From Chloroflexota bacterium (GTDB lineage: Bacteria > Chloroflexota > Dehalococcoidia > UBA2979), in the NCBI GenBank assembly GCA_009839925.1, contig VXOS01000006.1:1-43187 (forward strand): a stretch of 43,187 nt of DNA. The letters run 5' to 3'. Under the pieces are notes generated by a model, which was not told where the DNA came from, did not search any database, and saw nothing but the letters and a program-made list of their open reading frames with translations. Of the stretch, positions 20,239 to 27,153 are shown one piece after another (the first letter of the stretch is position 1; the number at the start of each line of letters is the position of its first letter). The translations under genes were made by a program, and so were the position numbers.

Positions 20239-22611
20239 ATGGCAATGCTCGTACGAATCGCCCGCTGGTGCTTCCAGAACCCCCGCAAGACCGTCGCCGC
20301 CTGGATCGCGGTCGTCCTCGCCACATTCGCGGCGGCCGGCGTCATCGGCCCCTCGTTCTTCGCGCAGCTCGAGGCCCCCGAGTCGGACAGCCGCAACGGC
20401 TTCGAGGTGCTCGAGGAGCACTTCGGCGGTTTCGGGAGCGGCCTCAGCGGCTCGATCGTCTTCCGCTCCGAGTCCGGCATCGACGACCCGGCGGTGCGCG
20501 GGGCGATGGAGGCGATGTTCGAGCAGGTCGACGCGTTCGAGGGCGTGAGCGTCACCAGCCCGTACCTCGCGGCGATCCCGGTCCCGGACACCGGACAGCA
20601 GACCCGGAACCTGCCTCACGCGCCCGGCCGCCCCCAGGTCAGCACGGACGGGCTGGTCGCCTTCGCCAGCATCGACCTCGCGCCGGAGCTGGACTTCAAC
20701 GAGACGTCCGCACTGGGCGGGGAGTTCGCCGACCTCGTGCCCGAGCTGCCGGGGCTGACGGTCGAGATCGGAGGCGAGGCGCTCAGCGAGTTCGAGCCGC
20801 CGCAGTCGGAGTTCATCGGGCTGGCGTTCGCCGTCGTGGTGCTGATTCTCGCCTTCGGCTCCGTGATGGCGATGGGGCTGCCGCTCGCCATCGCGGCGGC
20901 CGGCGTCGGGTTCGGCCTCGGCGTGGCCGTGATCCTCTCCAACGTGCTGTCGATCCCCGAGTTCGCGACGACGATCGGCGCGATGATCGGCATCGGGGTG
21001 GGCATCGACTACGCGCTGTTCATCGTGACCCGCTACCGCGACGGGCTCGCCGAGGACGGCGCCGTCGAGCCCTCGATCTTCCTCGCCATGGACACCGCCG
21101 GGCGGGCGGTGATCTTCGCGGGGCTGACGGTGGTGATCTCGCTGCTCGGCATGCTCTTTATCGGCCTGCCGTTCATCAGCGGGCTCGCTGTGGCCGCGGC
21201 GATCCCGGTCGCCGCCACGATGATCGCCTCCGTCACGCTGCTGCCAGCGCTGCTCGCGTTCGTGCGCGACCGGATCGAGGTGACGCGCTGGCGCGGGCTG
21301 ATCGCCGCCGGGCTGGTCGCGCTGGCGCTGCTCGGCGTCGGCCTCGGGTTCCGGCCGCTGCTGCTCGGCGCCCCGCTCGCCCTCGTCGTGCTCCTCGCCG
21401 GGTTCGTGGCGCCTCCGCTGCGCGCGATCGTCCCGAGGCGCCCTCGCGCGCCCATGGAGCAGACCTTCGCGTGGCGCTGGAGCCGCCTGGTGCAGCGCCA
21501 CCCGTGGTTCGCGCTGGCCGCCGGCGTCGCGATGCTGCTCGCGATGGCGTCGCCGGCGCTCTCGCTGCAGCTCGGCTTCGCCGACGAGGGCAACTACCCG
21601 GAGGAGACCACGACGCGTCGCGCCTACGACCTCCTCGGCGAGGGCTTCGGGCCGGGCTTCAACGGGCCGCTCCTCGTCACAGCCGAACCGCGGACCGAGG
21701 GTGATCGCGCCGTCATCGAGCCGCTGGTCGCGACCCTCTCGGCCACCGACGGCATCGCCTCCGTGAACGGTCCGCTGCCCAGCGACTTCGCGAATCCCGC
21801 GAACGCAGCCGCGTACATCGTGCAGGTCTACCCGGAAACCGCTCCACAGGATCCGGCCACCGCCGATCTCGTCGACCGCCTGCGTTCCGAGGTGATTGCC
21901 GCCGCCATCGAGGGCAGCACGCTGGCGGTCAACGTCACCGGGTTCGTCCCGCTGGGCGTGGACTTCACCGACTACCTGGCCACGCGCACGCCGGTGTTCT
22001 TCGCGGCGGTCCTCGTGCTCTCGTTCCTGCTGCTGCTGATCGTCTTCCGCTCGATCCTGGTGCCGATCAAGGCCGTGATCATGAACCTGCTCTCGATCGC
22101 CGCCGCCTACGGAGTGGTAGCCGCCGTCTTCCAGCACGGCTGGATGGGCGCCCCGATCGGCGTCGCCGCGGGCCCGATCGAGCCGTTCATCCCGATGATG
22201 CTGTTCGCCATCGTCTTCGGACTCTCGATGGACTACGAGGTGTTCCTGCTCTCGCGGGTGCGCGAGGAGTACGACCGCACCGGCGACGCGGTTGCCTCGG
22301 TTGCGGACGGCCTCGCCTCGACGGCGCGGGTGATCACGGCCGCGGCGGCGATCATGGTCGTCGTCTTCGCCAGCTTCGTGTTCGAGGACAACCGCAGCAT
22401 CAAGATGTTCGGCCTCGGCCTCGCGGTCGCCGTCTTCCTCGACGCGACCGTGGTGCGGCTGCTGCTGGTGCCCGCGGCGATGGAGCTGCTGGGCGCGCGC
22501 AACTGGTGGGTGCCGGGCTGGCTCGACCGGCTGCTGCCACGGCTCACTATCGAGCACGGGGCGCAGCCCGATCCGGCCGCCGTGACGACCGGCGGAGACG
22601 CCAGCGACTGA
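20239..22611 (+). CDS. MMPL-family (RND superfamily) transporter
   Basis: 790 aa; GIGVGIDYALFIVTRYRDGL and FGLSMDYEVFLLSRVREEYDRTGD motifs, two 6-TM blocks. Confidence 0.93.
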   Translation: MAMLVRIARWCFQNPRKTVAAWIAVVLATFAAAGVIGPSFFAQLEAPESDSRNGFEVLEEHFGGFGSGLSGSIVFRSESGIDDPAVRGAMEAMFEQVDAFEGVSVTSPYLAAIPVPDTGQQTRNLPHAPGRPQVSTDGLVAFASIDLAPELDFNETSALGGEFADLVPELPGLTVEIGGEALSEFEPPQSEFIGLAFAVVVLILAFGSVMAMGLPLAIAAAGVGFGLGVAVILSNVLSIPEFATTIGAMIGIGVGIDYALFIVTRYRDGLAEDGAVEPSIFLAMDTAGRAVIFAGLTVVISLLGMLFIGLPFISGLAVAAAIPVAATMIASVTLLPALLAFVRDRIEVTRWRGLIAAGLVALALLGVGLGFRPLLLGAPLALVVLLAGFVAPPLRAIVPRRPRAPMEQTFAWRWSRLVQRHPWFALAAGVAMLLAMASPALSLQLGFADEGNYPEETTTRRAYDLLGEGFGPGFNGPLLVTAEPRTEGDRAVIEPLVATLSATDGIASVNGPLPSDFANPANAAAYIVQVYPETAPQDPATADLVDRLRSEVIAAAIEGSTLAVNVTGFVPLGVDFTDYLATRTPVFFAAVLVLSFLLLLIVFRSILVPIKAVIMNLLSIAAAYGVVAAVFQHGWMGAPIGVAAGPIEPFIPMMLFAIVFGLSMDYEVFLLSRVREEYDRTGDAVASVADGLASTARVITAAAAIMVVVFASFVFEDNRSIKMFGLGLAVAVFLDATVVRLLLVPAAMELLGARNWWVPGWLDRLLPRLTIEHGAQPDPAAVTTGGDASD

Positions 22612-22650
22612 GTGACAGCGGAGCGGCTCGCGCGCCTGCCTCGCCGCCCC

Positions 22651-23613
22651 TTACCCCAGCCGCCGCAGCTTCTTGATACTGCGCAGCTCCCGAGGCGGAT
22701 CGAGGTGCTGGCCGCGGATCGTGTAGGCCGCCTCGGCGACGTAGATGTCGCCCCGTGAATCGACCGCGATGCCGTGCGGGGCGATGAAGCGGCCCGCCTC
22801 CTCGCCCTCCTCCGGGTGGCCGAGGCGCGCGAGCAGCTCGCCCTCGCGGCTGAGGATGCTGACGCGATGGCCGACGCCGAGCGCGCCCTCCAGGCGCGCG
22901 AAGCCGTTCAGCTCGCCGATGTAGATCAGGCCGTCGCCGCCCATCGTCATGCCGCAGGGGCGGTGGATGTTGTTCCACATCGCCAGCGGATCGCCTTCGC
23001 GGTCGAAGACCTGCACGCGATGGCTCTCGCGGTCCGCGACGTACAGCCGGTCCTGCTCGTCGATCGCGAGGTTGTGCGGCACCATGAACTGCCCGACATC
23101 GATGCCCGCCTCGCCCCAGGACAGCTCGTACTCGCCCTCGGCGGAGTAGCGGTGGATGCGCGCGTTGCCGTAGCCGTCGCTGATGAAGATCGAGCCGTCG
23201 TGCGAGGAGACGGCGGCGTCGGTGGGGCGGTTGAAGGGATCGCCGCTGTAGGCCTCGGCGGAGACGCCCGGCTCGCCGATGGTCAGCACCAGCTCGCCCT
23301 CGCGGGTCCACTTCGTGATCGTGTGGGAGCCGTCGTCGGCGCAGTAGAGGAAGCCGTCCGGCCCAACGCTGATCGCGTGCGTGCGGTCCGTGAACACGCC
23401 CTCGCCGAAGGCGCGCACGAAGCCCCCATCCGGATCGAGGACGACGACGGGGTTCGCGGGCTGCCTCGTGAGCAGGTAGACCAGATCCTCGGCGTCGACG
23501 GCGACGCCGGCGCACTCGACGAGGTTCATGCCCGCGGGCAGTCGCTCCCACGCCGCGAGCGCCACGTAGCGGAACGCCCCGGTCCCGAGCTCGACCGAGT
23601 CTGTCGCGACCAT
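22651..23613 (-). CDS. NHL-repeat beta-propeller protein
   Basis: 320 aa; repeated GIAVDSRGDIYVAE, ISVGPDGFLYCADDGSHTITKWTREGE, AIDEQDRLYVADRESHRVQVFDREG. Confidence 0.85.
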   Translation of the reverse strand: MVATDSVELGTGAFRYVALAAWERLPAGMNLVECAGVAVDAEDLVYLLTRQPANPVVVLDPDGGFVRAFGEGVFTDRTHAISVGPDGFLYCADDGSHTITKWTREGELVLTIGEPGVSAEAYSGDPFNRPTDAAVSSHDGSIFISDGYGNARIHRYSAEGEYELSWGEAGIDVGQFMVPHNLAIDEQDRLYVADRESHRVQVFDREGDPLAMWNNIHRPCGMTMGGDGLIYIGELNGFARLEGALGVGHRVSILSREGELLARLGHPEEGEEAGRFIAPHGIAVDSRGDIYVAEAAYTIRGQHLDPPRELRSIKKLRRLG

Positions 23614-24109: not shown

Positions 24110-24173
24110 CCTCGTGCCTTCCTTCCCCCGACTCAAGGATGGTAGCGCGCTTTCGCGAGTCCGGGCGCGGGCG

Positions 24174-24200
24174 TTGTCGCCTGCACGGGCGTGATACAAT
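24174..24200 (+). promoter_or_regulatory. Putative promoter TTGTCG - 15 nt - TACAAT with extended TGa
   Basis: TTGTCG 24174-24179, TG at 24192-24193, TACAAT 24195-24200; about 100 nt upstream of the fused permease ATG. Confidence 0.4.
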
Positions 24201-24300
24201 GCTGTCATCACGTTGCAGTGCCCAACGAGCGGAGGACTCCCAATTCGGGAATCCCGGCAGAGTCCTTGCTGCGAACGGCTGACAACGAGTGGTGTAGCCC

Positions 24301-25884
24301 ATGAACCGACTCCTCAGAGACTCTGGTGAAGGTCGCGCGCTGACATCGGCGCGTTTTCTGACTCCTGTGGTTGGGTTCATAGTAGGGCTGCTATTCGCGC
24401 TGATTCTGCTTCAAGTAACGATACCCAACCTGCCGTGGCTACAAGGGTTGCCGCCTGGTGATCGGGAAGTCGGCGGGGATTTGCCAGTCCTGTTCTGGCC
24501 TGTCTCATCGGAACTGGGGTCGGACCCTCTAGGCCGGCCGATCATGGATGAGGTGTGGTCCCACTTCTCGACTACGCTGGAGCGCACAATCTGGGGATGG
24601 GCCCTGGCGGTGCTCCTGGCCTGGGGGCTTGGCCTTCTGCGGCGGAGTCGACATCCGGGAATTCCCGCAGGGAGGCTCGTAGTGGCCGCCATGGGCGCGA
24701 TGCCACCGCTTGGGCTGCTAGTACATTACGCATGGGCGCCTCCGTCAGTGAACTCTGACCCACTCCTCTCTGTCTCGCTGGTGGTCGGGGTAACCGGCGG
24801 CCTCTGGACTGCGCTGGAGCTGCCGAGCCGGAACGACGTGTCCCCGCGGGTCGCGCTGGCACGTGCGGCTGGTCTGGTGCTGCGCCACGGGGGCATGTTG
24901 CTGGGCGGCGTAATCCTGTTGGAGGCACTCGTTGCTGGCTCTGGTCTGGGGACCATTTTCCCGAGTCGTGGGTCCGGGTATCCGGCACTCCTTGGGCCGT
25001 CAGCTGCTCTCTTCATCTGGCTGACCTTATGGTCTCGCTTCCTGGGGAATCTCGTGCTTGCAGCGGTGGGTGGGATCGCTCCAGCCAGGACTGCGACTCG
25101 CAGGGGAGCGGTACACGGCACTCACCTCGCGATCGGCGGAGGGGTTGCCCTCGTCCTAGTGGCCCTGCTGTTCGTGGCGCCCATCGCGGCCGCCCACGAT
25201 CCACTCGGCATCAACCTGCTGGAGCGGACCATTGGTCCAGGCGGCGCTTACTGGCTCGGCACCGATGCGCAAGGCCAAGATGTCTTTAGTCGTGTAGTTC
25301 ACGGAGGCCGTTCGGCTGCCGAGCTGTGCGTCCCGATGGTGTTGCTGGCGCTCATAGCGTGCATCCCGATGGCAGTCGCCCGGATCGTGCTCGACGGCGC
25401 CGGCATGCCGAAGCTCCTCCACGGAGTCGAGGGCGTACTGGAGGGATTGATAAGCGTCCCCTGGCTGATGTTGGGAATCCTGATCCAAGTGCACGTGCTG
25501 GGGGAATGGCCACTCTGGGCGGGGTTGGCTGTAGTGCTCGTACCTCGGGCTCTGCGCGTGGGATGGGCGCTCGGAGCAAACGAACGCCTGCAACGAGACC
25601 ACCTGGCCCTTGTGGCCCTGCAGGCCGGGACGCTCCTCCTTGCTGCGGCCCTGACTGCGGTCGTCGCGCTTGGTTTCCTGGGCCTCGTGTCCGGGCCCCC
25701 TGAGGCAGACCTGGGACTGATGCTCAGGGACTACCGATTGCTGGTGTGCGTAGCTCCGTGGACCATCATCTCTCCCGGTGCTCTTGTCGCCCTGGTCACC
25801 GCCGCCTGGCTGGTGGTGGCCACGCTGTTTTCTCAATCAGACTCGGAGTACCGACCCGCGGGTTGTGTCCACGCTCTGTCGTAG
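24301..25884 (+). CDS. Fused DppB-DppC-like ABC peptide-type permease, orphan
   Basis: 527 aa; N half GRPIMDEVWSHFSTTLERTIWGWALAVLLAWGLGLL and GGVILLEALVAGSGLGTIF (DppB-like); C half HDPLGINLLERTIGPGGAYWLGTDAQGQDVFSRVVHGGRSAAEL and VALGFLGLVSGPPEADLGLML (DppC-like). Confidence 0.75.
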   Translation: MNRLLRDSGEGRALTSARFLTPVVGFIVGLLFALILLQVTIPNLPWLQGLPPGDREVGGDLPVLFWPVSSELGSDPLGRPIMDEVWSHFSTTLERTIWGWALAVLLAWGLGLLRRSRHPGIPAGRLVVAAMGAMPPLGLLVHYAWAPPSVNSDPLLSVSLVVGVTGGLWTALELPSRNDVSPRVALARAAGLVLRHGGMLLGGVILLEALVAGSGLGTIFPSRGSGYPALLGPSAALFIWLTLWSRFLGNLVLAAVGGIAPARTATRRGAVHGTHLAIGGGVALVLVALLFVAPIAAAHDPLGINLLERTIGPGGAYWLGTDAQGQDVFSRVVHGGRSAAELCVPMVLLALIACIPMAVARIVLDGAGMPKLLHGVEGVLEGLISVPWLMLGILIQVHVLGEWPLWAGLAVVLVPRALRVGWALGANERLQRDHLALVALQAGTLLLAAALTAVVALGFLGLVSGPPEADLGLMLRDYRLLVCVAPWTIISPGALVALVTAAWLVVATLFSQSDSEYRPAGCVHALS

Positions 25885-25970
25885 TAGGACGATCTGGTCT
25901 GCGGACCCTGATGAGCGGCAGAGGGCACGCCGATTGCTCCGGCTCCGGGCGAGTCCTTAGGGCAAGCGAG

Positions 25971-25992
25971 GCGGGCGGGCGGGTCAGCCCGC
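25971..25992. terminator. GC hairpin between convergent genes
   Basis: GCGGG-TCAG-CCCGC within gcgggcgggcgggtcagcccgc, between the fused permease and the convergent oxidase gene. Confidence 0.3.
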
Positions 25993-26007
25993 AGACGGCC
26001 CCTCGCG

Positions 26008-27153
26008 TCAACCGCCCGTCTCGAAACGGTCGAGGCGGAAGAGGGAGATGTCGTGGTCGGTCTCGCCGCGCATGGCGAGGTCGGCCATGATCTCGCCGAC
26101 GACGCTGCAGAACTTGAAGCCGTGGCCGGAGAACCCCGCCGCCACGAAGACGTTCGGCATGCCGGGCAACGCGTCGATGATGAAGTGCTCGTCTGGCGTG
26201 TTCGTGAACATGCAGACCTTGAGCGACAGCGTCGGCCCGTTCGCGTCCGGGAAGTAGCGCGCCAGGCCCAACCGCAGCAACGCCTCGTCCTCCTCGTGGA
26301 ACTCGCGATCGAGGCCGTCGGCGGTCGTCGCCTCGCCGAGGTGGTGGTACCTGCCGATCTTGACCCCCGGAACGCCGAAGACAGGAAGCGCGTAGTACAG
26401 CCCTTCCTCGAACTCGCCGATCACCACCGGGCAGACCTCCGGCGCGTACAGCTCCGGGCGCAGTGGCTGGAACCAGGCGATGACCTGCCGCTCCGGTTGC
26501 AGCAAGCCGTCCAGCGGTGACGCCACCGGCCCCGCCCATGCGCCCGAGGTGATCACGAGCGCCCCAGCCTCGTACGCGCCTCGGGTGGTCTCGACGCGCA
26601 CGCGGTCGCCCGTACTCTCCCACTCCAGCACCGCCTCGCGGGCGCGCACCTCGCCGCCTCGCTCCTGCGCGGCGAAGACGTGGTTGACGATGCAGCGCTC
26701 GGACAGCAGGAAGCCGCCGTCGGGCTGATGGAGGCCCATCCAGCCCTCGGGCGCACGCAGGCCCGGGAAGCGCCGGGTCAGTTCGGCGCCTGTCAGCACC
26801 TCGTGCGGCAGATCGTGCTCCTCGCAGGATTGCAGCGAGCCGGGGAAGACTCGGCCGTCCTCGCTGCCGATGTCCAGCCCACCGGTGATGTGCAGCAGCT
26901 GCTCGCCGCTCGCCGCCTCCAGCTCGCGCCAGCGCTCGTAGGCGCGGCGCAGCAGCGGCACGTACGAGGGGTGCTCGAAGTAGGCGAGCCGGATGATGCG
27001 GCTCACCCCGTGCGACGAGCCCATTTCGTGCGGCACGTCGTAGCGCTCGATGCCGAGCACGCGCAGGCCGCGGCTCGCGAGCTCATGGACCGTCGCCGAG
27101 CCCATCCCCCCGACGCCGATCACGATCACGTCGTACGTGCCGTTCGCGCTCAT
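26008..27153 (-). CDS. Monomeric sarcosine oxidase / N-methyl amino acid oxidase-like flavoprotein
   Basis: VIGVGGMGSATVHELASRGLRVLGIERYDVPHEMGSSHGVSRIIRLAY; KVCMFTNTPDEHFIID carries the likely covalent-flavin Cys; GFSGHGFKF. Confidence 0.88.
   Translation of the reverse strand: MSANGTYDVIVIGVGGMGSATVHELASRGLRVLGIERYDVPHEMGSSHGVSRIIRLAYFEHPSYVPLLRRAYERWRELEAASGEQLLHITGGLDIGSEDGRVFPGSLQSCEEHDLPHEVLTGAELTRRFPGLRAPEGWMGLHQPDGGFLLSERCIVNHVFAAQERGGEVRAREAVLEWESTGDRVRVETTRGAYEAGALVITSGAWAGPVASPLDGLLQPERQVIAWFQPLRPELYAPEVCPVVIGEFEEGLYYALPVFGVPGVKIGRYHHLGEATTADGLDREFHEEDEALLRLGLARYFPDANGPTLSLKVCMFTNTPDEHFIIDALPGMPNVFVAAGFSGHGFKFCSVVGEIMADLAMRGETDHDISLFRLDRFETGG

Follow-up and report, generated by a model that had tools for sequence, protein, structure and literature searches.

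A fused DppB-DppC-like permease with both EAA coupling loops truncated, a possible ATPase-uncoupled derivative in a Chloroflexota genome

In ABC importers of type I, the role of transmission is ascribed to the EAA coupling loop. In the Dpp system of E. coli, each contact between the membrane subunits and the ATPases is mediated by an EAA coupling helix located between TM4 and TM5 (PMC12136057). This leads to the question as to what a peptide permease-like protein may be when this element appears reduced in both of its halves. Such a protein is encoded in the window analysed here, a stretch of 43,187 nucleotides from contig VXOS01000006.1 of a Chloroflexota bacterium. An initial annotation, made from the sequence alone, described a single chain joining a DppB-like to a DppC-like half, with shortened coupling loops, a GC content below that of its flanks suggestive of acquisition, and an "orphan" position away from any substrate-binding protein (SBP) or ATPase gene of this family. 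The protein was proposed either to employ ATPases in trans or to have become independent of them.

The ORF begins with an ATG; a TAG lies in frame two codons before it, and a convergent gene follows the ORF. Mononucleotide shuffles of the ORF contained on average 12.4 in-frame stops, compared to the terminal stop only in the real frame; this single open frame, along with the DppC-like C half and the weaker DppB-like N half described below, led us to judge the ORF to be real. Its 1584 bases contain no stop and no frameshift error by which two genes might have been merged, all changes in length are in frame, and hydrophobic helices are present throughout. The GC content at the three codon positions (0.73/0.50/0.70) displays coding periodicity. 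The lower GC of this segment was borne out: the ORF has a GC of 0.646 and a GC3 of 0.703, where eight further genes in the window range from 0.855 to 0.961 in GC3. Along the full length of the ORF, GC3 stays low (0.61-0.76). The low GC3 is not a side effect of encoding a membrane protein, since 14 Dpp genes from other loci of this genome, among them permeases, have values of 0.88-0.96. A promoter scan upstream of the ORF returned no match. An extended -10-like element, TGATACAAT, was spotted by eye at 24193-24200, approximately 100 bases upstream of the ORF, and is absent from the promoter-scan list.

By profile and by predicted fold, the C half is a DppC homologue. It matches the NCBIfam Opp2C model with an E-value of 6e-19 (68.5 bits, far under the 300-bit cut-off of that model) and the DppC-type chain Rv1282c in the PDB with an E-value of 2e-8, while hhalign assigned a probability of 99.7 to DppC. 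Foldseek returned target TM-scores of up to 0.76 to the DppC/OppC proteins of E. coli and M. tuberculosis. Indeed, the C half resembles the DppC/OppC/NikC subunits (E. coli DppBCDF 8z1w, M. tuberculosis DppABCD, OppABCD) in both sequence and fold, and possesses their periplasmic GTDxxGxDVFSRV and LGFLGL..PP segments. It differs from them in an EAA loop that is 21 residues shorter, in a diverged cytoplasmic TM2-TM3 loop, and in the absence of the C-terminal GDxLRDxLDPR.

The N half can only weakly be recognised as what would be a much diverged DppB homologue. Using hhalign, it matched DppB with a probability of 77 (E-value 2e-5 over 179 columns), compared to 25 for DppC, and hmmsearch against DppB gave an E-value of 9e-5 in a database of seven sequences. 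The alignment places its landmarks (LGS, TLE, AWAPP, ARAAGL, GG-LLE, GLG, YP) in the DppB order and, like DppB/OppB subunits, it has six helices; however, it is only ~22% identical to these subunits, and its EAA loop and neighbouring segments are shorter by 21 or more residues. Pfam BPD_transp_1 did not reach an E-value of 1 with the fused protein, leaving Pfam silent on the N half. The profile searches suggested in the initial annotation hence upheld the C half clearly and the N half weakly, while BPD_transp_1 recovered neither, and the proposed composition of the single chain stands to that extent. The features of the locus are collected in Table 1.

Table 1. Positions of the fused gene, its parts, and the surrounding cassette in the window
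Feature	Position	Strand	Basis
Fused DppB-like/DppC-like permease gene, 527 aa	24301..25884	+	Profile matches, model, frame
N half, residues 1-268, divergent DppB-like, six predicted helices	24301..25104	+	hhalign, alignment, low-confidence model
N-half EAA coupling loop remnant, residues 174-200	24820..24900	+	G191-E208 spacing; segment z -6.0
C half, residues 269-527, DppC-like	25105..25881	+	Profile, PDB, Foldseek and hhalign matches
Periplasmic TM1-TM2 segment of C half with LGTDAQGQDVFSRVVHGGR, kept	25192..25314	+	Segment z -1.3; alignment
C-half EAA coupling loop remnant, residues 419-446	25555..25638	+	R419-G458 spacing; segment z -7.6
Cassette without counterpart in sister genome G037	24130..26011	.	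Flank alignment; 1.9 kb

In order to compare the coupling loops, anchor distances were taken from MAFFT alignments with 90 DppB and 91 DppC sequences from the same genome, its phylum and other phyla, a set composed of near full-length hits in which short-loop relatives may be under-represented. The distance G191-E208 is 18 residues in the fused protein and 38-39 in all 90 DppB sequences, and R419-G458 measures 40 residues against 61 in each of the 91 DppC sequences. Across these 181 peptide permeases, loop length varies by no more than one residue, and the other permeases of the same genome carry the full EAA loop. The N-half loop retains ARAAGLVLRHG, with ~21 residues including the LP gone, and the C-half loop is missing 21 residues including the LPN. 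A further loss lies upstream of the EAA loop in the N half, where P147-E208 spans 62 residues compared to a DppB minimum of 88. The alignments thus confirmed what had been noted by eye, namely that both EAA loops are truncated, by ~21 residues each and in frame, and that the LPN/LP block is absent; neither loop is intact, and the fused protein, lying outside all 181 sequences, is devoid of the full-length TM4-TM5 coupling loop that characterises each half of Dpp/Opp-type permeases.

Segments were scored against the family as leave-one-out z-scores, and their borders were placed according to the model and the six-helix topology known for this family. Within the C half, TM1 (z -1.2) and the periplasmic TM1-TM2 (z -1.3) and TM5-TM6 (z -2.4) segments scored close to the family, as opposed to two cytoplasmic segments, the TM2-TM3 loop (z -8.4) and the EAA loop (z -7.6). 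In the N half, low scores were obtained for the EAA loop (z -6.0), for TM5-TM6 on the periplasmic side (z -4.9) and, to a lesser degree, for the scoop region (z -3.1). Neither half has accordingly preserved its cytoplasmic side, and a clearly preserved periplasmic side is seen in the C half alone. Similarity to the family is lost in many segments, TM2 and TM6 among them. The AlphaFold model of the full protein contains approximately twelve long helices at a mean pLDDT of 68.9, without a coupling helix at residues 424-430. Of the two permease folds that this check was expected to reveal, the C half was modelled well and the N half poorly, with pLDDT values mostly of 45-70 in the full model and 60.6 when modelled alone, the latter model being too weak to make a fold search informative.

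Fusion of the two subunits is in itself already known; it is the loss of both loops that is unusual. A pattern scan of GTDB contigs identified true fusions of DppB and DppC in Streptomyces and Nonomuraea. When one of these served as the query, the family was also located on hundreds of Klebsiella plasmids and one Streptomyces plasmid. These fusions share with the window protein the B-then-C order in one chain and an LPWxxG start motif; however, they retain both coupling loops with the LP and have an SBP gene upstream, and the window protein has neither. In S. clavifer (L148), the SBP, the fused permease and two ATPase genes follow each other in one operon. Two other Streptomyces/Nonomuraea loci (L144:2316-5720 and L086:2356-5690) encode an SBP and an intact-loop fusion with no ATPase directly after, unlike S. 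clavifer, and on Klebsiella pneumoniae IncFIB/IncHI1B-type plasmids (L147:3410-9815; matches in 493 plasmid records) the fusion has an SBP, an MFS transporter and an ABC ATPase upstream. Membership of the window protein in this fused family was not supported. Its C half scores 101 bits on the general DppC profile and 47 bits on the fused-family profile, and its N half has no significant match to the latter; the better fit of the C half to general DppC argues that this is probably an independent fusion.

No full-length relative was identified among 44 genomes of the family, 393 of the class and 400 of the phylum (overlapping samples that amount to roughly 700 distinct genomes), nor in the class of the best C-half hits, IMG/VR or plasmids. 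Peptide-pattern scans of GTDB contigs, whose reach is that of close relatives, likewise yielded no full-length relative among the matches listed. The best C-half hits in the phylum sample are ordinary DppC proteins with 33-39% identity. No relative with the same two deletions was found in the genome, IMG/VR and plasmid searches or among the GTDB-contig matches listed, and these searches furnished no full-length homologue, hence none residing beside SBP or ATPase genes that would speak against the annotated isolation of the gene. A literature search, which covers few subscription journals, returned no description of such a protein. The fused gene is a one-off oddity and not a new system. Long open frames of 635-720 aa at other DppC genes were ruled out as fusions, as the DppB lies in another frame.

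The genomic context was compared with that of a sister genome, G037, in which the flanking sequence ending at 24129 and that beginning at 26012 are matched with 88-92% identity. Between these flanks, G037 carries DinB-, ribokinase- and GrpB-like genes (named by eye from their translations); since other genes fill the same interval, the permease lies in a variable cassette. This species-variable position, in combination with the atypical composition, supports the acquisition that had been proposed from the GC content. No tRNA, Rfam RNA or clear repeat was detected at the cassette ends, and no donor was found for the cassette. The ORF is neighboured by genes for MMPL-like (a label given by eye), NHL-repeat, 174-aa membrane and N-methyltryptophan-oxidase-like proteins, and neither an SBP nor an importer ATPase gene adjoins it, as annotated; in this genome, an SBP lies close to the majority of the other DppBC loci. 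The gene order at window 20239-23613 is not that of G037 (L063:8956-12491), where the NHL-repeat gene flanks the MMPL-like gene from the opposite side.

With respect to the ATPases, the "orphan" position proved not to be unusual. Against 18 SBP_bac_5 matches and about 12 pairs of DppBC genes, the genome shows no more than two oligo_HPY ATPases (a count from a draft genome, from which some may be missing). In the rest of the family, two to eight were counted per genome where any were found. The two, DppD and DppF, lie side by side on contig C66 with no permease nearby (L149:6275-8422 of genome G000; the further contigs listed for this set of permease, SBP and ATPase genes are C38, C47, C53, C67, C106, C115, C127, C140, C141, C147 and C157). 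The search for unlinked components thus succeeded, and ATPase subunits are available through this pair. Nine DppBC contigs screened for Walker A and signature motifs revealed no importer ATPase beside the permease genes, and homology to DppD detected none adjacent at further DppBC loci. The lack of an ATPase next to it is therefore no distinguishing mark of the fused gene, as the other DppBC loci examined also lack one, and one ATPase pair apparently serves many importers in trans.

As far as can be read from the sequence, the fused protein is probably no longer an ordinary pump, and we would give an even chance to its being a Dpp/Opp permease derivative that was acquired horizontally and is uncoupled from ATPases. 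DppB-like and DppC-like halves are fused into one 12-helix chain from which both cytoplasmic loops that hold the ATPases have been removed, with the membrane core and the C-half periplasmic face retained, and the gene would have been acquired horizontally. The protein would be made and kept in the membrane where, with no usual docking of DppD/DppF, it would be uncoupled from ATP hydrolysis; contact with peptide-type SBPs or an ATP-free passage of solutes would, speculatively, be its likeliest remaining activity. A point against such uncoupling is that the similarity of the N half is also lost outside the cytoplasm, in its TM5-TM6 and scoop regions. The similarity lost over many segments, the atypical composition, the lack of a promoter-scan match, and the occurrence of the gene in only one of the genomes searched speak for the main rival, in which an acquired or duplicated Dpp pair became fused, lost its loops under relaxed selection, and is now a functionless, decaying remnant. 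We consider this rather unlikely, as such a history sits poorly with 1584 bases free of stops and frameshifts, where ~12 stops are expected in random sequence of like composition, and with length changes that are all in frame and hydrophobic helices that are preserved.

Of the two alternatives initially offered, loss of ATPase coupling fits better than ATPase recruitment in trans, given that both halves lack the docking segment. A working importer subunit that recruits the unlinked DppD/DppF through a shortened or different loop would accord with a genome whose importers seem as a rule to be served in trans, and the case of FhuC shows that a shared ATPase can be bound even by permeases devoid of a classical EAA motif (PMC10147376). 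Here, however, it is the length of the loop itself that is missing in both halves, in contrast to its near-constancy in the other peptide permeases compared and its full presence in those of the same genome, and we regard such recruitment as improbable. Very improbable, in our estimation, is an assembly or binning artefact in which a foreign fragment was joined into the contig. The draft genome comprises 214 contigs and has 3.4% contamination, and the gene occurs in no other genome searched, but host-like flanks lie on both sides within one 46-kb contig, sister homology stops at the gene boundaries, and the frame is unbroken. Furthermore, the low GC3 over the whole ORF argues against a host/foreign join inside the gene.

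Returning to an ATPase-uncoupled derivative, it is a tentative thought, somewhat short of an even chance, that the membrane domain of an ABC importer has here been cut free of its ATPases to act as an ATP-independent gate, an SBP receptor or an SBP-binding competitor; the helix bundle and the side that meets the SBP, in at least one half, would have been kept, and both motor-docking loops lost. A natural protein without the EAA loop in both halves would provide a direct test of the use of the membrane domain without an ATPase, although a single gene without relatives is as yet too little to carry that significance.

A separate observation concerns two DppB-DppC pairs arranged in tandem (L038:1987-3868 and L038:4042-5923). 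These have identical profile scores and lie 2055 bases apart, which points either to a repeat in the assembly or to a duplication of recent date.
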